From Haloprofundus halophilus (GTDB lineage: Archaea; Halobacteriota; Halobacteria; Halobacteriales; Haloferacaceae): DNA of 64,000 nt. Below, in pieces: positions 1 through 16,406 of the stretch. The stretch lies in contig NZ_QQRR01000002.1 in the NCBI RefSeq assembly GCF_003439925.1, forward strand, positions 992,001 to 1,056,000, written 5' to 3'. The first letter of the stretch is position 1; the number at the start of each line of letters is the position of its first letter. Under the pieces are notes generated by a model. That model worked only from the letters and a program-made list of their open reading frames with translations. It was not told the origin of the DNA and did not search any database. The position numbers were made by a program, and so were the translations under genes.

Positions 1-570
1 CAGGAACTCATGGGCGTCGGACCCTACACCGCTAACGCGGTGGCGAGTTTCGCGTTCAACGAGGGCGACGCCGTCGTCGACACGAACGTCAAGCGCGTGC
101 TCCACCGCGCATTTGCTGAAATCCATAATACGGACGAACCGTCCGACGAAACCTTCGCAGAACTGGCGAACGCGCTTATGCCGCCCGGAAAGTCCCGCGT
201 CTGGAACAACGCGATCATGGAACTGGGCGGTGTCGCCTGCGGGAAGACGCCGCGGTGTGACGAAGCATCCTGTCCGTGGCGGGAGTGGTGTCACGCCTAC
301 GAGACGGGCGACTTCACCGCACCGGACGTCCCGGCCCAGCCGTCCTTCGAAGGAAGCCGACGGCAGTTCCGCGGCCGCGTCGTCCGCATCCTGGGCGACA
401 ACGAGGAAGTCCCGCTGGATAACCTGGGCCACCGGGTCCGGGTCGACTACGCGCCGGACGGGGACCACGGCCGGGAGTGGCTTCGCGGCCTACTCTCCGA
501 CCTGCAGGATGACGGGTTGGTCGACGTGGACGAACGCGACGGAGAGACGGTAGCGCGGCTTCGAAGGTAA
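1..570 (+). CDS. mutY: A/G-specific adenine glycosylase MutY, C-terminal part (chimeric, 5' cut by window)
   Basis: MutY removes adenine mispaired with 8-oxoguanine or G in base excision repair. The visible part holds the end of the HhH glycosylase fold (GVGPYTANAVASFAFNEGDA, then VDTNVKRVLHRAF) and the FeS-cluster cysteines (C-x5-C-x4-C-x5-C around residues 75-95), followed by a short C-terminal domain. The frame is open from base 1, so the start lies upstream of the window. Up to about base 110 the codon use is chromosomal. From 111 on it changes (more GAA and CTG, an ATTTGCTGAAAT stretch) to the style of the adjacent element, so this 3' part was brought in by the element and restores the gene. 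A second, displaced 3' part lies at 15934-16406 with nearly the same protein sequence. Function is confident; activity of the hybrid is inferred. Confidence 0.9.
   Translation, partial: QELMGVGPYTANAVASFAFNEGDAVVDTNVKRVLHRAFAEIHNTDEPSDETFAELANALMPPGKSRVWNNAIMELGGVACGKTPRCDEASCPWREWCHAYETGDFTAPDVPAQPSFEGSRRQFRGRVVRILGDNEEVPLDNLGHRVRVDYAPDGDHGREWLRGLLSDLQDDGLVDVDERDGETVARLRR
104..122 (+). other. attL: core ACCGCGC plus element arm
   Basis: The core ACCGCGC (104-110) lies in the codons for His-Arg-Ala of mutY. To its right, 111-122 (ATTTGCTGAAAT) is element sequence. Its reverse complement, ATTTCAGCAAAT, matches the arm at the other element end (15922-15933) at 10 of 12 positions. This is the usual layout of a tyrosine recombinase core site: two inverted binding sites around a 6-8 bp overlap. 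Confidence 0.7.
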
Positions 571-5733: not shown

Positions 5734-6753
5734 ATGTCATACTTAATGGTTAATCCGGCTTGGTTCTTTTCTACACTTTCCCAAGGAATTGCGGCAATTG
5801 TTGGTCTCCTTGTCTCTGCGCGGTTGATTCAATATCAGCTTGAAAGACAACGACGAGAAAGACGGACTGAAGACCTTCGTGAGGAGATTCAAGACTTTGA
5901 CGAGAAATTTGGTCATATTCTCTCACCGATGGCTGGGACATTTGCAGAAAGTGCAGATCTCTCGTTCTGGTCTCAGTCCAGATTTTTGTGGCTGTCAGGA
6001 GACAAATTAAATTTTGATATTGCGATAAATTCGCCTACGCCGGTAGTAACCATGTACTGGATACATATGGCTCGAATTAGTCATGTACTGATGACGGGTA
6101 TTTATCCATCTCCCAATCCACGAGCGCACTATTTGTTTTCACAAAAGGAGTTCGATAGGCTGCGTGAATCAATTACTTGGCTCAAAGAGAATGTCGATGA
6201 GCGGTCGCTGTTCATTGAGTATCTCTACGCGGACCTTGGGATACAGGGGAACAAACCGTATACGGCAAATGTCTTCAATCCAGATCCTCCGGGTGAGTCA
6301 CTTCAGGATTGGCTGCAGCGCTACCAAGATTATGCAACCCGGCACAGTACTTTGCTATCTGGTAAGAATCTACAATCATACCAGCGGGTGTTCGGTGAGC
6401 TTCACCGAGATTTTCAGCGGCTTGACTCGCTTCGGCAGAATACAATAATTACATTCAATCCAGGTATCAATACATTTCTTGCAAAGGTATCTTCGTTGAT
6501 TCTTGTAGGAGTAATACTGCCATTGGCAGCAATCACTTCTGATGTTCCTGATTTACTTGCTTGGTTGGTGATTGATTCAACGTTATTGTACCTATATGAG
6601 ATTGTTTTATTGTCTACGTCAACCGTACTAATATTTGTATTACTAGATGATCTTCAGCAAGAGTTTGGGACTACATCGTTTCCGGAGTACCTGAAAGAGA
6701 CAATAGGGGAGTATCAGCAGCGGGTCCGGGAACGGGCAGATTCTGTTTTGTGA
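5734..6753 (+). CDS. Unrecognised membrane protein, first of two in AT-rich cargo
   Basis: A 339-residue protein with one N-terminal membrane segment (about residues 9-30, FFSTLSQGIAAIVGLLVSA), a long soluble helical stretch beginning with a basic coiled-coil-like RQRRERRTEDLREEI, and a C-terminal hairpin of two membrane segments (about 245-308). The soluble middle (about 60-240) has conserved-looking aromatic motifs but no fold I can name. GC content is far lower than in backbone genes and codons such as AGA, ATA and TTA are common, which indicates acquisition. A TATA-like GCATAAATA lies directly before the ATG, so the start may be slightly internal (ATG 5746). A role in defence is a guess from context. 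Confidence 0.6.
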   Translation: MSYLMVNPAWFFSTLSQGIAAIVGLLVSARLIQYQLERQRRERRTEDLREEIQDFDEKFGHILSPMAGTFAESADLSFWSQSRFLWLSGDKLNFDIAINSPTPVVTMYWIHMARISHVLMTGIYPSPNPRAHYLFSQKEFDRLRESITWLKENVDERSLFIEYLYADLGIQGNKPYTANVFNPDPPGESLQDWLQRYQDYATRHSTLLSGKNLQSYQRVFGELHRDFQRLDSLRQNTIITFNPGINTFLAKVSSLILVGVILPLAAITSDVPDLLAWLVIDSTLLYLYEIVLLSTSTVLIFVLLDDLQQEFGTTSFPEYLKETIGEYQQRVRERADSVL

Positions 6754-6964
6754 GAACCGGTTGAGTGAGTTTGTTTGCCCAGTGAGATACGCACCTGCAA
6801 TTCTGCACGAACGGTCCTAATAAGTCTCCGAAAAAACCTTTGTTTCACTGTATTGTCTAAGAGACGAGAATACCATTTGAAAGACTCTGGAATCAATCCA
6901 CCAAATATCTGCTATTGATAAGTCACCGAAACCTTACTGTGGCATAGGCGAAAGTTAGTTCCTA

Positions 6965-9205
6965 ATGAAGAAGCTTCAATGGATTGTTCTGAAGCTGACC
7001 GGTTTTCTTAAGCCGATATATAGGCGTCTTGGAATTTTCCCATACCGAGGATCCATTTCACTACAAAAACACGCCAAAACAAAGACGTGGGCCAACACAG
7101 GTCAAATAAAGCAGTTAGGAAGCGCACTCTATGAACAGCGACATACATCCATCACCGCCCTTCTGCTGCTGATTGGTACACTCCTCCTCACGATTGCAGC
7201 GGATATCTCACCGTTCAAAGCTGCAAGTTGGTTTTCGATTAACACGGTCTGGCAAACCCACGCAACGATAATCGGTTTGAGCTTCGTCGTCCTAATTTTC
7301 CTCTTAGAGATTGTGTCCCAAAGTCGTCTCGTTGAGGGTGCATTAGAACAATTCCTGCGGAAATCGATGGTGCTGCCTATACTGGTCTACTCATTGCTTG
7401 GAAGCCTTATCATCGGTGTCTTGGCAATCTATCCAGATCTCCGCACAGGCTGGATCAGCCCAAATTTGCCAGCCATGCTTTTTGCTGGCACTGTTTTCGG
7501 TGTGATATTCGCCTACTGGAAAGTCATAACACTGGTCTTAACTGATAAAATAGATCAAGAAGCCTATATTATCTTGAAGGAGAATATATCACAAAAAATC
7601 CAGCAGGATACCACTATTTACGAGTACGACCAAATCCTAGAAACATATCTGCCTGACGGCGTTAAAACCGAGAAAACGCTGTACCCATACTATGGAGGGC
7701 GAACAGATTCGCTGACAGCGCATGATTTGGAGCTAAACGGTGTCATCGCAGACATCCACCTACCGACCTTCGTCTACGGAATCTCTGAGATCGTACGTAT
7801 CGGTGAGAAGCACCGAAAAAACGATGCAAAAACAGACGGCGATGAAACATCACCTGACGATGAAGAGGATACTCCCGTCGAGGTCCGCGTTAAAATCGGG
7901 GACAATCTGCAGGAACTCTCGTCGATACTTTACATCGACTCAGACTTCTTCCACGAAGACATGGAATCTGTCTACCCCATCATCGCTGCCAGTATCCTCA
8001 CCCGGCCAGGAACAGGACGTGACGACAGCATCCAGAAAATCCACAAATACACAGACTTCATTGATCAGGAAGGAAAGCGGATAGTCAGAAATGCAGAATC
8101 AAGGGCATTCCTCCATTTTTTGAACCAATACGAAGATGTAGTACAGCACTCCTTCCAAGAACTGGACGAAGCTCGGTTCCTTATTGAGGAACACCGATAT
8201 ACGAACGCTGATCTCCCCTTCTACAATCTCGACCAGATACTATTCCGCGTCTTCGAAGAATCCCTTGACGAGATGAACCGTGAATTCACTAACCACATCT
8301 TAGAATTACTGGAAGCACTCGTCCATACCACTACCCAAATGGAGCTGTACGGAGCCTATCAGAGATATATGAACCAATATTCACGGTTCTACTTCGCTGT
8401 TGCACTACGGGATGACAACCTCCCGGAAAATTTTTCGGTTGGAATCATCGACCATCTTATTGAGAAATTCGAATTTTCTGCCCTAAACGGGATGCATAGA
8501 GATTATAACACCTTCGACAACCTTGACGGATTTGAATATTACATAACCAGTTACAGCGAGGTTGCATTGGAGCAGGCTCACCGAATGTTCAAGTACGCCT
8601 TTGAGAACCAGGATGCTCGTGGATTCACAAAGATTTGGGACACAGTGACCCCTCAACGAGACACCGGCAACGATGCTGTCCAAGAAACAATCCGGAAGGA
8701 AAAACAAGATCTACGGTTCAATGCTGCTGCAATGACATATGACGTCTCAAAAGACCACGAAAAGTATCAAGAGACGTTTGACACTATCTATAATCGGTGT
8801 ATATTGAAGACGTATCATGATTTACCAGAATTGTTTGATATCTACTTTAGGATCAAAGAGAAGGAAGGGAATCGGACTCGATGGGGACAATGGCAGCGAC
8901 AAGAGCATGACATAATTCAAGAGATGCATGGAAAGCCGTACTCAATTGAGCCAGTGTACAGTTTGGGCGAGTTCTATTGTTTCACCGGTATCTTGACAGG
9001 GTATCTCTATGATGACCGCGATGTCAACCCTTTGAATGGGAAATCTTTAAGCGAGGAGGATTTTCGCCGTATTCGTATGTCAGTACACGATGTGAAGCGG
9101 AAAAAGCCGTTTATCGACGTGCGCCAGTACATCGATGAAGACGATTATGATAATTTGGCTGACCGGTTCTTGAAATATCACAAAGAGATTGTTGACGAGA
9201 CCTAA
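6965..9205 (+). CDS. Unrecognised large membrane protein with cytoplasmic helical domain
   Basis: A 746-residue protein. Four membrane segments lie near the N-terminus: about residues 58-80 (ALLLLIGTLLLTIAA), 95-118 (IIGLSFVVLIFLLEIV), 133-155 (VLPILVYSLLGSLIIGVLA) and 165-190. They are followed by roughly 550 residues of mostly helical, charged sequence without recognisable motifs. The first 55 residues are basic and cytoplasmic-looking. It follows another unknown membrane protein by 211 bp in the same orientation and AT-rich composition, so the two may form one system. The membrane module plus large soluble domain recalls membrane-effector architectures, but no family was recognised. Confidence 0.6.
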   Translation: MKKLQWIVLKLTGFLKPIYRRLGIFPYRGSISLQKHAKTKTWANTGQIKQLGSALYEQRHTSITALLLLIGTLLLTIAADISPFKAASWFSINTVWQTHATIIGLSFVVLIFLLEIVSQSRLVEGALEQFLRKSMVLPILVYSLLGSLIIGVLAIYPDLRTGWISPNLPAMLFAGTVFGVIFAYWKVITLVLTDKIDQEAYIILKENISQKIQQDTTIYEYDQILETYLPDGVKTEKTLYPYYGGRTDSLTAHDLELNGVIADIHLPTFVYGISEIVRIGEKHRKNDAKTDGDETSPDDEEDTPVEVRVKIGDNLQELSSILYIDSDFFHEDMESVYPIIAASILTRPGTGRDDSIQKIHKYTDFIDQEGKRIVRNAESRAFLHFLNQYEDVVQHSFQELDEARFLIEEHRYTNADLPFYNLDQILFRVFEESLDEMNREFTNHILELLEALVHTTTQMELYGAYQRYMNQYSRFYFAVALRDDNLPENFSVGIIDHLIEKFEFSALNGMHRDYNTFDNLDGFEYYITSYSEVALEQAHRMFKYAFENQDARGFTKIWDTVTPQRDTGNDAVQETIRKEKQDLRFNAAAMTYDVSKDHEKYQETFDTIYNRCILKTYHDLPELFDIYFRIKEKEGNRTRWGQWQRQEHDIIQEMHGKPYSIEPVYSLGEFYCFTGILTGYLYDDRDVNPLNGKSLSEEDFRRIRMSVHDVKRKKPFIDVRQYIDEDDYDNLADRFLKYHKEIVDET

Positions 9206-9679: not shown

Positions 9680-10109
9680 CAAGCACGCTGCGACGTACCC
9701 GTCCGAACAGCAGTACGAGCGATGGCAGGACTGCGCCGACGACCTAGGGATGTCGACGTCGGAATTCATTGAAGCGATGGTCGAAGCGGGAATGAAGAAG
9801 TTCGACGCTGCCGTCGAACCCGACGAGACGAACCAGGAACTGCGGACCCAGCGGAACCAGTTGAAGACGGAACTGGATCGGACCAGAGGCCGGGTTCAGG
9901 AACTGGAGGACGCTGTTTACCACGGCGAGCGTCGGACGATAAAGCGGTACGTCGAAGCGAACCCGGGGGCGACCTACGACGAAGTCATCCAGCACGTCAT
10001 CAACACGGTTCCGGAGCGAGTGACGACGCACCTAGATGACCTGGAGGGCGACGAACTCTGCTTCGGGGACGGCGGGTACTACCCAGCTGACAATGGAGGC
10101 GGTTCGTGA
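9669..10109 (+). CDS. RHH/coiled-coil protein of the integration module
   Basis: A 146-residue protein starting at ATG 9669 inside the end of the wHTH gene. The N-terminus (AATYPSEQQYERWQDCADDL, then GMSTSEFIEAMVEAGMKKFD) is a ribbon-helix-helix-type DNA-binding segment. Residues about 58-85 form a coiled coil (QELRTQRNQLKTELDRTRGR). The rest (YDEVIQHVINTVPERVTTHL, ending in FGDGGYYPADN) looks like a small winged helix. Its ATG overlaps the wHTH frame and its end overlaps the next gene by 4 bp. It is probably an accessory factor for recombination or regulation. Confidence 0.6.
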   Translation: MGSSKHAATYPSEQQYERWQDCADDLGMSTSEFIEAMVEAGMKKFDAAVEPDETNQELRTQRNQLKTELDRTRGRVQELEDAVYHGERRTIKRYVEANPGATYDEVIQHVINTVPERVTTHLDDLEGDELCFGDGGYYPADNGGGS

Positions 10110-10648
10110 TGCCGCGAGCCGACGTCGACGTCTCAAACCGTCCCGACGACGCGCCCGGTGTCCGTGACGTCGAATACTGGCTGGGCGTCTACAAGTCGAT
10201 GGACGACATCCCAGACCGCTACCGGCTGAAGAGTTTTGAATCCAGGTTCCGGGAGGAAGACACCTGGGCAGAGTACCTGGCGACACGAGACGACCTGGCC
10301 GAATCTACGAAGAAGAATTCCTGGTATCCCTGCGGGGACCGCTTCAAGAAGTATATGCGGGAGGAAATCGGCCGACATCACGTCCTCCCGCACCCGGACG
10401 ACATCGAAGCGTACCTGGCGCACATCAAGGATGGAGGGTATTCGATTAAGGTGACGGAACGGTCGACAAACACGGTCTACTACCAGCACCTGTCCCCGCT
10501 GAAGACGTTCTTCAACTGGCTGGTCCATCACGTCGACTATCCGCACGTCTACAACCCGGTCCTGCTGGCGGCGCACGCCGGTGGTGTCACCCGCGAGGTG
10601 TGGTACTGGCAGACAGATTACAAACCCGACTACGAAGACAGAGAATGA
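10106..10648 (+). CDS. Recombinase-like protein with only the core-binding (SAM-like) domain
   Basis: A 180-residue protein resembling the N-terminal SAM-like domain of tyrosine recombinases: ESTKKNSWYPCGDRFKKYMR, DDIEAYLAHIKDGGYSIKVT, then TVYYQHLSPLKTFFNWLVHH. The catalytic domain (R, H-x-x-R, Y) is absent and the stop codon is followed at once, with ATGA overlap, by the complete integrase. The sequence shows no frameshift remnant, so it looks like a genuine partner subunit rather than debris. It may direct the integrase to att arms or act as a directionality factor. Confidence 0.6.
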   Translation: MMPRADVDVSNRPDDAPGVRDVEYWLGVYKSMDDIPDRYRLKSFESRFREEDTWAEYLATRDDLAESTKKNSWYPCGDRFKKYMREEIGRHHVLPHPDDIEAYLAHIKDGGYSIKVTERSTNTVYYQHLSPLKTFFNWLVHHVDYPHVYNPVLLAAHAGGVTREVWYWQTDYKPDYEDRE

Positions 10649-11748
10649 GTGACAACCAGACGACCCACGAGACGATAGCACAGGCGTTCGGACGGACGAC
10701 GGACCCGCTGGCGGAGTACGACACCCGCTTTCGGGATCTGGATATCGACCCATTCGAACTCTGGATGGACGAACAGGTCCACAGTCAGGACTACTCCGAC
10801 GGAACGGTGACGGCGATACAGCGTCGAATCGACCAATGGCGCGAATATATGGAGGACAACCACGACCGTCACCCGGCGGTCCCGACGACCCGTCACGTCC
10901 TCGACTTTGCGCACCACTACCTGGAGGAACGAGACAACGCGAAGAACACCGTCGCGGCGAAACTGGGTACGCTCAGCCGGGCGTTCCGGTATTTCCAGAA
11001 CGAACCAGCGTTCCCGCATCCGACGGACTTCAACCCGTTTGATGCCGCAAAAGGGAAAATCGACCTGAACGGCGAGGATCCCCAGGAACCGCGACCCATA
11101 CAACTGGAGGAACTACGCGACGTCATCCGTGACATCAAGCACATTCGGGACCGTGCGGTCATCGTCACCCAGTTCAAACTGGGGCTTCGTGCGTCGGAGA
11201 CGTCGAACATCAAACTGAGTGAACTCCATATCGCCAACACAGAACTTCAGGACCACTACGGGGAACTAGGGACGCACCCAGCCCTAGAGGGACGGGAGAA
11301 CGCAGTCTACATCCCGCATGACCGGGACAGGAACAAGTCGGAGCGTCCACGCGTCCTTCCGCTGGATGACGAACTCCGACGGGTCCTTCTCCAGTACCTT
11401 CTGTGCCGTCCCGACAACGGCCGCCCGTGGCTGTTTTTGTCAAAGTCGGGCGGGAAGAAGGTCAACCACACGAACATCAACGACATATGGAAGAAACACT
11501 TCCGCCCAGAGTACGGCCCGACGGAACGGTATCGGGGCGTGTCGTCGCACTACGGGCGACACTACTTCACCACCTGGTTCCGCATCGAACGCGAGTGGTC
11601 ACGGGACCTTATCAAATATCTTCGTGGCGACCGGCAGAGTGGTGGTAAGATTCGGTCAACTAGAGACGCTATTGACTCCTACATCCATGCCTGGTATGAG
11701 GATATCGATAACGAGTACCGCGAAGAAATCTACAAGCTACGAATTTAA
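10645..11748 (+). CDS. int: Tyrosine recombinase (integrase)
   Basis: A 367-residue site-specific recombinase that catalyses insertion and excision. Residues about 40-150 are the core-binding domain (DYSDGTVTAIQRRIDQWREY, then KNTVAAKLGTLSRAFRYFQN). The catalytic domain follows with the first Arg in FKLGLRASETSNIKL, a basic strand residue near DRDRNKSERPRVLPL, the H-x-x-R box in SSHYGRHYFTTW and the nucleophile Tyr in DAIDSYIHAWYED. The start at ATG 10645 overlaps the preceding stop. The gene is intact and coupled to the three upstream genes, so the element may still be mobile. Target choice in mutY instead of a tRNA is inferred from the element ends. Confidence 0.93.
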   Translation: MSDNQTTHETIAQAFGRTTDPLAEYDTRFRDLDIDPFELWMDEQVHSQDYSDGTVTAIQRRIDQWREYMEDNHDRHPAVPTTRHVLDFAHHYLEERDNAKNTVAAKLGTLSRAFRYFQNEPAFPHPTDFNPFDAAKGKIDLNGEDPQEPRPIQLEELRDVIRDIKHIRDRAVIVTQFKLGLRASETSNIKLSELHIANTELQDHYGELGTHPALEGRENAVYIPHDRDRNKSERPRVLPLDDELRRVLLQYLLCRPDNGRPWLFLSKSGGKKVNHTNINDIWKKHFRPEYGPTERYRGVSSHYGRHYFTTWFRIEREWSRDLIKYLRGDRQSGGKIRSTRDAIDSYIHAWYEDIDNEYREEIYKLRI

Positions 11749-11836: not shown

Positions 11837-12988
11837 TTACGAGTCACTTGCGTAAGCGTCATAATCAATGTCAGTGAGTGACTCATTTGGATTCTCCCAT
11901 TGGGACTTAGCCTTCTCAAAGGCAAGCCTTCCACATTCATCGGACATCCTATCTCGGAAGTGCTTGTACTTCACCATTTCTTTGATATCTCCTGCATTTT
12001 GTGAACTCCACATAATTTTGTAGTCATTTGGAGCTTCGGCGTCCTCAGAAAGTATTTCCAAGTCAAGCGCAGCCGTTATCAGATTCTCAACTTTCTCATG
12101 TACAATATCTTCGATTTCTGACCGATTGCTACCCAGTTCGATTTTGCTACGGTAGCACTCATGAAACTCAGATGCCTTCAATTCCTTAGGGTTATCCTTG
12201 TTTTCCCCTAAATGCTGAAGATAGATTCGCATACAGACTTCTCCGATTGGGAATATAGGATTTGACGTCAAGCAGTAACGAATATCATCGTTTTCAACCC
12301 GAGTTACATCGATACCACGTTCACCGATTTCACGCAACTTTGCGTGGTGTACTGTACCGTTCTTATGATGAATTGTCTGGTCATTCTCTTCAGGTAGTTC
12401 ACCCTCTACGAGCGACCAAATAGCATACTCATCAGGCTGAGTGGCTATTTTGACGACATCATAGTCAAGATCGATTAGGTCTCTGTCTCGTGTGAGAGTC
12501 AAGTATTGGACACTTCTGATGTTTTTAGATTCTGAATCCAAGTGAGATTTTAGACGGTTTTTGTTATCCTCTGATTCAACTACAGTAGCGATACTGTTGA
12601 TTTCTGTTGCTATCTTTTGAGAGTCCTCTGTACCGACGATACAAGAAACAAAGCAGAGGTGTATTTGACCATTAGCCTGAGATTTGGCTAATAATATCTC
12701 GGCGTCGGATTGTCCTGCCTCAAAAAGGGGGTTGACTATAGTGGTTTCAAACCCACTATCGCTACCATCAGCTCCATCTTTCGGAGAAAATCCGTCAACT
12801 ACAGCCCTGAATAAGCGGTGTTTTGGTTGGACTTGCGATTCAAAGTTAGTCCGTAGACTATCAAGGATAAATTCTTCATCAAGAGATTTGTATATTCTAT
12901 TATAGAGCCTTTTGAAATCCTTCTGGCTACTCTTGGGTATATTCTCATCTATCCAATCGTTTTCATCGTATTTCGACGGATCCCTCAT
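11837..12988 (-). CDS. Unrecognised cargo protein B of a two-gene operon
   Basis: A 383-residue acidic, low-GC protein, downstream member of a two-gene operon (ATGA overlap with the 12985-14079 gene). Residues about 85-130 (TTIVNPLFEAGQSDAEILLA, then GQIHLCFVSCIVG) alternate strand and acidic turns in a way that could be a nuclease-like alpha/beta core, but no complete PD-(D/E)xK or other catalytic signature is present. The C-terminal half is helical (EIEDIVHEKVENLITAALDL). No family recognised. Location next to the integrase in an AT-rich island is typical of accessory cargo. Confidence 0.6.
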   Translation of the reverse strand: MRDPSKYDENDWIDENIPKSSQKDFKRLYNRIYKSLDEEFILDSLRTNFESQVQPKHRLFRAVVDGFSPKDGADGSDSGFETTIVNPLFEAGQSDAEILLAKSQANGQIHLCFVSCIVGTEDSQKIATEINSIATVVESEDNKNRLKSHLDSESKNIRSVQYLTLTRDRDLIDLDYDVVKIATQPDEYAIWSLVEGELPEENDQTIHHKNGTVHHAKLREIGERGIDVTRVENDDIRYCLTSNPIFPIGEVCMRIYLQHLGENKDNPKELKASEFHECYRSKIELGSNRSEIEDIVHEKVENLITAALDLEILSEDAEAPNDYKIMWSSQNAGDIKEMVKYKHFRDRMSDECGRLAFEKAKSQWENPNESLTDIDYDAYASDS

Positions 12989-14079
12989 ACGACTTCGCGT
13001 GCCTCACACTCAGAATCAAAATGGTCGCTCACGAAATTGAAGATGCGAACAGATTGGTCAATGTCCGTCTGTTCCCTAGGGAATATCCGTATTTTATCAT
13101 TTTTCGACTTTAGAGTTAGAAGTTCGTGAGATGAGTCATCAATAATCTCTGCTTGGAAAGAGTCTGCATCAGAGGCAGTCTGGAACTCAGAAACGTTGAA
13201 TTCGTAAAAGTCCTCACTCAGATGGGACTCGAATCCCTCAAGTCCGGCTTTCTGAATTCCTCCATTCACTTTGATTTCCCACGGGGAGCTGATGTGCATC
13301 TCTCTATTCTCAAAGAATGTACTCTGCACATCACCAAATCCACCGGTATTGGCCGATTCTTTGATCGAGAGAGTTCTCTCCATTTCACGCTTTAACGCGC
13401 CCCAGAGGTCAAATATACTTCCTTTGACATGAACGAAGACACCATTCTGTTTAACTCGGAACTTAAACCGGTGTGGCCGCTCAAAGACCATAATCTTAGG
13501 AAGAATCCCATAATTGTACCTCATTTCCTTATAGGTCTCAATGCCATCTATTCCGCGGTACTGAATAGAACGTTCTACGTCAGGTCGACGACGAGCCGGA
13601 GTATTCGAGTCATACGACCTTCTGGCGCTGAAGTAGGGGATAATCAGGTCATCGTATTCAGAGACAAGCCGCTTTCTCAAATTATCTATTGCCCTTTTAG
13701 GAAGTTGAAGTCTCCCTACGTCCTGTGTCTCCTGCAGAAAGGCCCAAATCGTCGGCGGGAGTTCGTCGGTCTTGTTCGCAGTCGTAAAGAATACCGGAAA
13801 ATCATCCTGAAGATAAACGTAGGTGTAGACCGATTTTCCTTCGTATGAGGCTCGTAGAAGCTTCAAATCATCTGATTCCTCAGAGATGACAAAGTGGTCA
13901 CTCAACTTGACAGCCTCCAGGAACTCTTGTTTATCTTTTAAATTATTCACCGCTGCGAATATGTTGAATTCACCTGACAGCGATGAGAGGTCCGCCTCTG
14001 TGTCAAGATAATGGACAAGATTATCCGCCGAAGTGAACCGACGGTCCATCAATTCTAGGAAGTCGGGCTTCTGGCTCAT
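12985..14079 (-). CDS. Unrecognised cargo protein A of a two-gene operon
   Basis: A 364-residue protein, upstream member of the operon. Residues about 80-110 (KSVYTYVYLQDDFPVFFTTA) and 190-245 (GIDGIETYKEMRYNYGILPK, then FKFRVKQNGVFVHVKGSIFD) suggest an alpha/beta sensor-like or beta-rich fold. A cluster of Arg (TPARRRPDVERS) lies near residue 165. No enzyme motif or membrane segment. It is translated just before protein B with a 4-bp overlap, so the two probably act together. The function is unknown. Confidence 0.6.
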   Translation of the reverse strand: MSQKPDFLELMDRRFTSADNLVHYLDTEADLSSLSGEFNIFAAVNNLKDKQEFLEAVKLSDHFVISEESDDLKLLRASYEGKSVYTYVYLQDDFPVFFTTANKTDELPPTIWAFLQETQDVGRLQLPKRAIDNLRKRLVSEYDDLIIPYFSARRSYDSNTPARRRPDVERSIQYRGIDGIETYKEMRYNYGILPKIMVFERPHRFKFRVKQNGVFVHVKGSIFDLWGALKREMERTLSIKESANTGGFGDVQSTFFENREMHISSPWEIKVNGGIQKAGLEGFESHLSEDFYEFNVSEFQTASDADSFQAEIIDDSSHELLTLKSKNDKIRIFPREQTDIDQSVRIFNFVSDHFDSECEAREVV

Positions 14080-14179: not shown

Positions 14180-14722
14180 CTAACTGATAAACGAGTTAGA
14201 ATCGATTATCTGGTTACGCCTGAGAGAGATATCTTCGATATCGTCATAGAGGTCTTCCTGATCTGCGTCCGAAACCTCTTCGTTTCTCACATCCTCAATT
14301 ATCGATTTGTACCTCATTACCTTGGAATAGAACTCTACGACCTCCTCCAGTTCCTTAGTGTTAAAGAATGATCCAAGTAAGCCTATTTGGCCCGTGTTAT
14401 TTTCGTAGACGACGGTAGGTATCGAGTTGGGAGCGGGGACATCATCCGGTTGAAGAGGACGTGAAGAAGGATCTGTTGAGATTCCGTCCATCTGGTCAGC
14501 ACACTTCTTTATACCATTCATCTGTCTCACCTCAGTGAGCAGGGCTATTCGAAGTTTTCTCCTCTCCCAGGCTTGTCGGGCGGAATAGACTATCAACGCC
14601 GCAATGACGGACACTGCGATACCGACGAGTGTCGAGTCCGGTAATCCAGAAGAAACGGACTGAGCAGCCGTAGTTGTGACTTGAACGCTGTCCGGAGTAG
14701 TGGGGACCGTTACAGGAGTCAT
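14180..14722 (-). CDS. Single-span membrane protein of unknown function
   Basis: A 180-residue protein. A Thr/Ser-rich N-terminus precedes one membrane segment (about residues 30-48, STLVGIAVSVIAALIVYSAR), followed by a basic stop-transfer (ERRKLR) and a cytoplasmic helical region. The stretch IPTVVYENNTGQIGLLGSFF, then LEEVVEFYSKV is a pattern I have seen in many bacterial and archaeal one-TM proteins of unknown role (P-x-x-V-Y-x-x-N-x-G-x-I-G-L-L, then FY). It lies between the unknown two-gene operon and the HEPN gene in AT-rich cargo. Confidence 0.6.
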   Translation of the reverse strand: MTPVTVPTTPDSVQVTTTAAQSVSSGLPDSTLVGIAVSVIAALIVYSARQAWERRKLRIALLTEVRQMNGIKKCADQMDGISTDPSSRPLQPDDVPAPNSIPTVVYENNTGQIGLLGSFFNTKELEEVVEFYSKVMRYKSIIEDVRNEEVSDADQEDLYDDIEDISLRRNQIIDSNSFIS

Positions 14723-14898: not shown

Positions 14899-15906
14899 AT
14901 GGCAGGTCCATTGGAAGTAAAGAGAAGAGAATGGAGACCGTCTATGAAAGATGATCCACTGGCGGTTGATATTGAAGATAGAAGACATACTGCATCCCAA
15001 ATAGATACTCATCCAGCGGATATTGAAACTCTTGATTCGTATGAAGAACGAATTGGAGATTATAAAGCAAGAGGATTTACGTATATACCAATGCCGAAAA
15101 ATGGTAAATATTATAACACAGAAGAAGGGTGGATTAGGGACCTGAATTCTAGCCAATTGATTGACGAAGAAACACATCTGCTGGAGGTTTTACGCTTGTT
15201 ACAGGAAGAAGCGTTTTTGCTGGTGGATTATTCTTCAATAAGTGCTGTCCTGATATATGAGGGAGATGAGCCTTACCTCCTTTACGGACAAAAGGATGAG
15301 GGCAAAGAGTACACATCAAGTGAATATGCAAGATATGTTGATAGTTTAGAAGAAGAACGAACAAAAGATGCTCATTTCTATACTATTGGTGAAGCGAAAG
15401 AGGAATTCCCGGAATTAGCCGAATTGATCGATAGACAAGCCTGGGAACATATAGAGCATGATGAAGACCGATATGGGATAATTACCCTGGCAGATGTTAA
15501 CCGAAGGGGAGTCAAACTGATGATATATGTTGTTTTATCTGGACTAGTGTCTAAACTATCGCATAAGATAGAGGATGAATATCCTGAGTCCGAGCCAATA
15601 TTGAAATATTTGCGAGCTGACACCATTGGCAGATGGTACAAGAATCAAATGGAGGGGCTAGAAATCCACGCTGCCGAACAAATGCATATGATCGAAATAA
15701 TGCAGGTAATTCAGGCATCTGATGAATCTTTTGTGAAGGAATGTGGATTTGATTCGAAAAGTGAAGTACAGGACTTAAATTCTATCAATGAAATTCGGAA
15801 CAGCGTAATGCATGCCAACCGATCACTTATTTACGATAGGCGTGATATTGAAGATATCCTGACAGCAATCAAGAGGGCTCAGGAGATCGTTTCCAATATC
15901 TCCTAA
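14899..15906 (+). CDS. CBS-like/HEPN domain protein (possible RNase effector)
   Basis: A 335-residue protein. Residues about 60-200 look like a CBS pair: GFTYIPMPKNGKYYNTEEGW, THLLEVLRLLQEEAFLLVDY, then YGIITLADVNRRGVKLMIYV. Residues about 200-330 are helical and end with NSINEIRNSVMHANRSLI, which carries the HEPN ribonuclease signature R-x4-H (R-N-S-V-M-H). HEPN proteins commonly cut RNA in toxin, abortive-infection and CRISPR-accessory systems, and CBS domains sense nucleotides, so a nucleotide-gated RNase is a reasonable hypothesis. The gene ends 16 bp before the attR arm, has AT-rich composition and its own promoter region (GGATAAATTTG about 40 bp upstream). The domain calls are by motif only. 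Confidence 0.6.
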   Translation: MAGPLEVKRREWRPSMKDDPLAVDIEDRRHTASQIDTHPADIETLDSYEERIGDYKARGFTYIPMPKNGKYYNTEEGWIRDLNSSQLIDEETHLLEVLRLLQEEAFLLVDYSSISAVLIYEGDEPYLLYGQKDEGKEYTSSEYARYVDSLEEERTKDAHFYTIGEAKEEFPELAELIDRQAWEHIEHDEDRYGIITLADVNRRGVKLMIYVVLSGLVSKLSHKIEDEYPESEPILKYLRADTIGRWYKNQMEGLEIHAAEQMHMIEIMQVIQASDESFVKECGFDSKSEVQDLNSINEIRNSVMHANRSLIYDRRDIEDILTAIKRAQEIVSNIS

Positions 15907-15921
15907 ACACATATATTGTAT

Positions 15922-15940
15922 ATTTCTGCAATTACCGCGC
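15922..15940 (+). other. attR: element arm plus core ACCGCGC
   Basis: ATTTCTGCAATT (15922-15933) is the right-end arm and ACCGCGC (15934-15940) the core; chromosomal mutY sequence resumes after it. Joined to the left arm it gives a symmetrical attP (12-bp arms, 10 of 12 complementary, 7-bp centre). The reconstructed attB, GTGCTCC-ACCGCGC-GTTCGAC, encodes Val-Leu-His-Arg-Ala-Phe-Asp. Confidence 0.7.
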
Positions 15941-16406
15941 GTTCGACGTTCCCGACGACGACGCGGCGTTCGAGGCGGCGGCAGCCGAACTGATGCCCGA
16001 GGGCGAGTCGCGCGTCTGGAACAACGCCATCATGGAACTCGGCGGCGTCGCCTGTACGAAGACGCCGACCTGCGACGAGTCGGGGTGTCCGTGGCGGAAG
16101 TGGTGTCACGCCTACGAAACCGGTGACTTCACCGCGCCGGACGTCCCGACGCAACCGAGTTTCGAGGGGAGTCGACGGCAGTTTCGCGGGCGGGTGATTC
16201 GGATTCTCGGCGAGTACGACGAACTCGCGCTCGACGCGCTCGGCCCGCGAGTCCGCGTCGACTACGGCGGCGAGACGGGTCGCGAGTGGCTGCGCGGGTT
16301 GGTCGGCGACCTGGCGAGCGACGGCCTCGTCGAAGTCGTCGCGGTCGGTGGCGAGGACGAGGGTGAGAGCGGGAGCGACGAGACGCTTGTTCGTCTCCGA
16401 CGCTGA
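15934..16406 (+). pseudogene. mutY: Displaced original 3' part of mutY
   Basis: An open frame encoding the MutY C-terminus from RAFDVPDDDAAFEAAAAELM through the FeS cysteines (C-x5-C-x4-C-x5-C) to the tail. It has no promoter or start of its own except internal ATG 15993. It is almost the same protein as 111-570 over the FeS region (SRVWNNAIMELGGVAC and FEGSRRQFRGRV are shared) but differs at most synonymous sites and has a longer, Gly/Glu-rich tail. This is the native chromosomal end cut off by the element, and excision would rejoin it. Confidence 0.88.

Follow-up and report, generated by a model that had tools for sequence, protein, structure and literature searches.

Two overlapping genes, here called A and B, form an obligate pair, and loss of the nuclease motif in B is coupled to the presence of a membrane-protein gene beside A. 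In the window (the whole 64,000-nucleotide stretch of DNA analysed) B has, judged from alignments, lost the catalytic Glu and Lys found in the majority of its family, and A is preceded by a membrane-protein gene, T. We see about an even chance that T-A-B is a three-gene sensor-effector module, probably antiviral or acting in exclusion, on an integrative element. The genes and domains concerned are as follows.

14180..14722, minus strand: gene T, putative membrane effector with an N-terminal transmembrane (TM) segment (PHROG phrog_33818; TM prediction)
12985..14079, minus strand: gene A, putative sensor with three TBP-like/helix-grip-like domains (PHROG phrog_24372, E 1.2e-111)
11837..12988, minus strand: gene B, predicted PD-(D/E)XK fold and winged helix, with other residues in place of the catalytic E and K (PHROG phrog_35712, E 1.5e-77)
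12281..12838, minus strand: PD-(D/E)XK-like core of B, residues ~51-236 (VIA)
12638..12646, minus strand: Ser-Cys-Ile at B residues 115-117, the site of Glu-x-Lys in most relatives (alignments)
11969..12268, minus strand: winged-helix domain of B, residues ~241-340 (VIA)
10645..11748, plus strand: the element's tyrosine integrase, facing B tail to tail (Pfam PF00589, E 4.3e-9)
10106..10648, plus strand: helper ORF overlapping the integrase, with a weak SAM-like N-terminal match (PF02899, E 0.021)

The ORF coordinates and pI values bear out the sequence-only reading of two overlapping genes with acidic products: A (364 aa, pI 5.02) and B (383 aa, pI 4.74) share the ATGA at 12985-12988. Acidic proteins are the norm in haloarchaea. 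The same reading had placed the pair directly downstream of the integrase, in a typical cargo position. The genes do lie next to the integrase, but not in one operon with it, as integrase and B are convergent, tail to tail, with 88 bp between them. It had also counted two genes and overlooked T (180 aa), located 100 bp upstream of A, with which the natural unit begins. T has a single predicted TM segment near its N-terminus, followed by basic residues and a soluble domain, and showed no match to a known effector domain. No conserved element was seen in the aligned gap between T and A. For T, A and B of the nuclease-dead pairs with computable values, dN/dS was 0.03-0.16, and by this measure purifying selection acts on the dead B and on T.

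Searches of 391 haloarchaeal genomes (the class) with single sequences detected A in 56 and B in 24, and family profiles raised these numbers to 62 and 57, respectively. All genomes with a full-length A also hold B (56/56), and the only genome with B alone, G018, carries broken pieces of B at a contig end that leaves no space for A. In the six extra A genomes of the profile search the A matches are weak and partial. Five of them have an ORF of ~280-330 aa directly after A (2-5 bp gap or short overlap), while the sixth is a fragment. A profile built from four of these five partner ORFs and one from G106 (A6) matched the B profile in hhalign (probability 92.6, E 4.7e-7); the fifth partner, L156, contained in profile A7, matched it weakly (probability 27, E 6.6e-4). 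Of 62 stretches read by script (gene and TM calls were made with simple scripts of our own), 61 contain A, and the next gene was B in every case (61/61), which exceeds what chance would give, although B is broken in a few copies. A search of the phylum gave matches in 21/392 genomes, nine of them outside the class. In the full-length loci fetched from outside the class B lies alongside A in 7/7, and the pair is also present in a nanohaloarchaeon (locus L130). The proposal of an obligate pair is thus strongly supported, and neither gene was found widely alone. One genome, G304, holds four T-A copies on three contigs with equal A score, one of them with a broken B (L063-L066), which suggests recent movement.

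That the sequence-only reading could name no motif or family in either protein agrees with the profile searches: Pfam, PADLOC, NCBIfam and PHROGs profiles yielded no function for A or B. PADLOC 2.0.0 had no match to A, B or T at E up to 1; more recent releases of defence databases might contain the system. In NCBIfam (June 2026) B matched only ParB (E 0.059) and T only GntP (E 0.065), both far under the cut-offs, and family profiles searched against PDB sequences gave short, chance-like matches only.

The AF2 model of A was built from a 10-sequence alignment (pLDDT 86.3) and consists throughout of three mixed alpha/beta, TBP-like domains. Its top match in Foldseek was RnlA (6y2p_A, from the E. 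coli RnlA-RnlB structure; E 8.3e-4, probability 0.97). In VIA it matched CENP-N (Z 8.6), RdgC (Z 7.3, 183 residues aligned), RnlA (Z 7.2, 93 aligned, 3.4 A) and an archaeal TBP (Z 6.5), all Z values staying below 9 and in the range of common arrangements, so that "TBP-like repeats" names a fold and not a function. Phage RdgC-like and RNase LS-like proteins were matched in a library of viral structures. Thus A resembles RdgC and RnlA (RNase LS) in the repeated TBP-like domains of its model. Unlike A, RdgC works as a DNA-binding ring made of one protein and is not known to have a nuclease partner. RnlA differs from A in its HEPN domain, and no sequence similarity to RnlA or RdgC was found.

A toxin-antitoxin system, with A or B as the toxin, the other as its antidote and A as a remote RnlA relative, would account for overlapping obligate genes as well as for the Foldseek match to the RnlA-RnlB structure. 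By Foldseek and VIA, at middling strength, the model of A indeed matches the TBP-like N-terminal domains of RnlA. Nevertheless, the VIA rows for RnlA span chain residues 91-196 only and miss its HEPN nuclease part, the mixed alpha/beta AF2 model of A has no HEPN-like or separate helical domain, and Pfam gave no HEPN match for A at E up to 1. Moreover, the catalytic motif of the relatives sits in B, and the catalytically dead versions retain both proteins plus the membrane protein. We therefore hold a toxin-antitoxin system for improbable, at roughly one chance in eight. According to a paper on HEPN proteins (PMC3710099), the TBP-like domain of RNase HIII binds DNA-RNA hybrids, and certain RNase LS proteins carry a fused domain similar to it.

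For B the AF2 model was derived from a 9-sequence alignment (pLDDT 80.5). Foldseek alone gave no match to it at E < 0.001. With VIA, residues 51-236 matched BsmI (Z 9.2, 145 aligned), XisH (Z 9.0, 114 aligned) and FokI (Z 8.0, 132 aligned), and residues 241-340 matched MukE (Z 7.6), ORC winged helices including that of ORC2 (Z 6-6.5) and the winged helix of DpnI (Z 6.4). Cap4 and Cdn1, at Z ~6, were the only defence nucleases among the VIA matches; Shedu and Argonaute did not appear, an absence that says nothing. According to the model, B combines a PD-(D/E)XK fold with a winged helix; Z values of 8-9 are only moderate, and the motif of the relatives supports the assignment. B shares the PD-(D/E)XK core with the restriction enzymes BsmI, FokI and DpnI, the last of which likewise has a winged helix after the core. 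It differs from them in that no PDB or Pfam sequence match was found, the B of the window lacks the catalytic residues, and B is always paired with A.

The motif D...[ED]xK is intact in 41 of 75 aligned B rows, lost in 30 and ambiguous in four (L100, L102 and L103 with ExE, L144 with SxK). Intact examples are L089 (D..ECK), L106 (D..EAK), L142 from outside the class (D..ECK) and the remote L152 (D..EIK). The D at the motif column is present in each of the 36 rows of the main family that were selected for their ExK. The B of the window has E97 and S115-C116-I117 and thus no catalytic D...(D/E)xK. In the rows with T (T-type) the catalytic Glu is gone in 23/23 aligned, the 24th being a broken copy. 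Position 97 is still D or E in all T-type B proteins compared, and ~13/19 have Glu in the Lys position; B may retain residual activity through moved catalytic residues.

A membrane partner was scored when a gene lying <= 450 bp upstream of A belonged to family T or encoded a predicted TM segment. Such a gene is found beside A in 29/30 lost-motif loci; in the remaining one (L094) the contig stops 67 bp upstream of A, and it was left unscored. Among the intact-motif loci the partner is present in 5/41, absent in 28 and without a call in eight, and one of the five positives (L080b) is the neighbouring T of another system. The ambiguous rows have a partner in 1/4. Three kinds of partner were distinguished. 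T lies upstream of A in 24/61 A-holding loci and is the partner in 20 rows of the tree. The second kind, a pentapeptide-repeat protein with two C-terminal TM segments, is encoded on the opposite strand in eight loci (L097, L098, L099, L121, L149, L150, L151, L156), where it is full-length and divergent to a nuclease-dead A-B. The third is a 291-aa protein with two TM segments (L158). Pfam confirmed the pentapeptide repeats in all four pentapeptide-type proteins scanned and identified no channel domain in these four, although the C-terminal part looks like a two-TM pore module. The haloarchaeal pentapeptide-repeat two-TM proteins are a candidate membrane effector family. A weak pentapeptide match (PDB 9nyi, E 0.0015) hinted at Hailong, for which the literature search turned up no paper plainly devoted to it.

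The A tree comprises 75 rows, 70 of them scored; the identical copies L064-L067, and L087 and L157, which have no usable A, were left out. On the careful tree the motif changed four times and the partner four times. The independent starred pairs all point in the same direction (4/4, p 0.125, the lowest value possible with four events, so that p 0.05 is out of reach), and one of the four rests on L158, which was relabelled partner-positive after inspection of its neighbour. An earlier quick tree, with L158 as partnerless, gave three pairs (median p 0.25), five motif changes and four partner changes. Several rows have long branches, and some joins of the tree may therefore be false. On the careful tree the coupling arose about four times, with three kinds of membrane partner.

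The order T-A-B also occurs in the pleolipovirus Harhisp1 (MW344767) as HarHp1_100, HarHp1_105 and HarHp1_110, all called hypothetical. Harhisp1 (Pleolipoviridae) shows the same gene order and strand as the window, with 48.9% identity in A and 35.3% in B, and its B motif is likewise degenerate (Ser-Cys-Glu). As far as PMC7911831 was consulted, it is described as an induced provirus of Haloarcula hispanica that inserts in a tRNA-Ala gene, whereas the element of the window lies in mutY. In a search of 50,697 phage records (E up to 0.01), Harhisp1 was the only one to match A or B. The idea that A-B are pleolipovirus core genes was rejected, since within the phage records only Harhisp1 has matches. 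Five scans of viral contigs revealed no relatives, and the integrase search in the phage records gave no match.

With T-type loci on a pleolipovirus and on integrative elements, a nuclease-dead proviral T-A-B could also serve in counter-defence or host takeover by binding and blocking host systems, with the dead enzyme as a decoy. The dead lineages retain A, however, and have membrane genes in separate lineages, which fits a change of effector better, and the pentapeptide-type partners are full-length membrane proteins. We regard counter-defence as an unlikely role, and give the same low weight to maintenance of the element, that is, to the B winged helix and the TBP-like repeats of A acting in its replication, partition or transcription control with no part in defence. 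Carriage on a provirus and on integrative elements and the B matches to ORC2 and MukE would suit maintenance. The pair is rare in viruses, however (1/50,697 phage records), and most relatives have kept the active site of the nuclease. In addition, a search of the fetched stretches with two query integrases found an integrase-like ORF nearby in just 3/41 intact-motif loci, against 6/20 T-type and 6/8 pentapeptide-type loci. These counts, which leave most loci without a detected integrase, likewise argue against a role of B in excision or integration control beside the integrase. The match to XisH, which controls the excision of elements, and the adjoining integrase in the window had pointed to such control, but the XisH score is tied with those of restriction enzymes and the integrase already has its own overlapping helper ORFs; we consider it very unlikely.

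Ten representatives of neighbour clusters, taken from A-B loci only, were scanned. They include PLD/SNF2 helicase, UvrD and PDDEXK proteins, a DUF1156 methylase, McrBC-like proteins and an Eco57I methylase; the others had no match. Predicted nucleic-acid-binding folds, the intact nuclease site in most relatives, these defence-type neighbours and provirus carriage are best explained by sensor-effector defence. Of the two kinds of system suggested by the sequence-only reading, this one has therefore gained, while toxin-antitoxin has lost ground: neither A nor B shows a toxin domain, both proteins are large, and a membrane protein is involved. In one locus (L080, 10038-16072) a further, distantly related A'-B' pair, its D..DCK motif intact, lies divergent from T-A-B. 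After it comes a 1270-aa protein belonging to the PLD/SNF2 helicase cluster, another member of which lies behind A-B in L095.

In a sensor-effector module A would recognise a nucleic acid or protein associated with an invader and then act on B. In most relatives B, triggered by A, would cut DNA. In the lineage of the window B would instead be a non-cutting adaptor that relays the signal to T, and T would act at the membrane, making the infected cell go dormant or die, or shutting out a second virus. A wider reading, to which we give somewhat less than an even chance, is that A-B is an undescribed archaeal immune core. Its nuclease would have been inactivated on about four independent occasions, and on each of them a membrane-protein gene, of another kind or acquired on its own, would have accompanied the loss; one and the same sensor would thereby have turned from cleaving DNA to attacking the membrane, the dead nuclease staying on as adaptor. 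Inactive prokaryotic Argonautes offer a parallel, as their catalysis-dead core relies on a partner effector (PMC11442185, seen in part), but the proteins are unrelated, and no Argonaute domain was seen in A or B. By titles and the beginnings of abstracts, no paper describing the A-B pair was found, and the paper on archaeal 'dark matter' islands (PMC4158269) contained none of the terms looked for. Archaeal antiviral defence systems are still poorly characterised (PMC12988326, in the part consulted). The pair is a candidate that is conserved and open to testing, both in haloarchaea that can be cultured and in some genomes from other classes of the phylum. Its related systems differ in whether the nuclease site has been lost and a membrane protein is present, and so amount to a natural experiment that would allow asking how immune systems swap effectors but retain the sensor.

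The window is part of a haloarchaeal chromosome, and the element itself is delimited by the 3′ end of mutY, which is present twice. The right copy (15934-16406) shows 85-91% protein identity to mutY of four genus mates, and the left copy (1-570) is 77% identical to the right one. DNA identity to the intact mutY of relatives drops after ~100 on the left and climbs at ~15931 on the right, and the 7-mer ACCGCGC is common to both ends.

104..110, plus strand: putative att core ACCGCGC, left end, within mutY; followed by the element's own mutY 3′ end, up to 570
15934..15940, plus strand: putative att core ACCGCGC, right end; followed by the displaced native mutY 3′ end, to 16406

The duplicated 3′ end, the identity breakpoints and the common 7-mer indicate that a 15.8-kb element probably inserted into mutY, bringing its own diverged 3′ end. 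The attachment site is thus a protein gene for which a diverged replacement 3′ end is supplied. GC content is 41-47% at ~5.5-9.5 kb and 11.5-16 kb of the element, whereas the 14 kb that adjoin it on the right have 62-73%. The same element holds two low-GC ORFs with hydrophobic stretches (339 and 746 aa; window 5734-9205, plus strand), and profile searches found no family for the 746-aa ORF. Divergent from T lies a 335-aa ORF (window 14899-15906, plus strand), the C-terminal part of which resembles HEPN domains (RNSVMH; PF18735, E 0.0087). It also weakly matches DS11, an anti-phage family in NCBIfam (E 3.9e-4, well short of the cut-off), and is possibly a second defence gene of the element.
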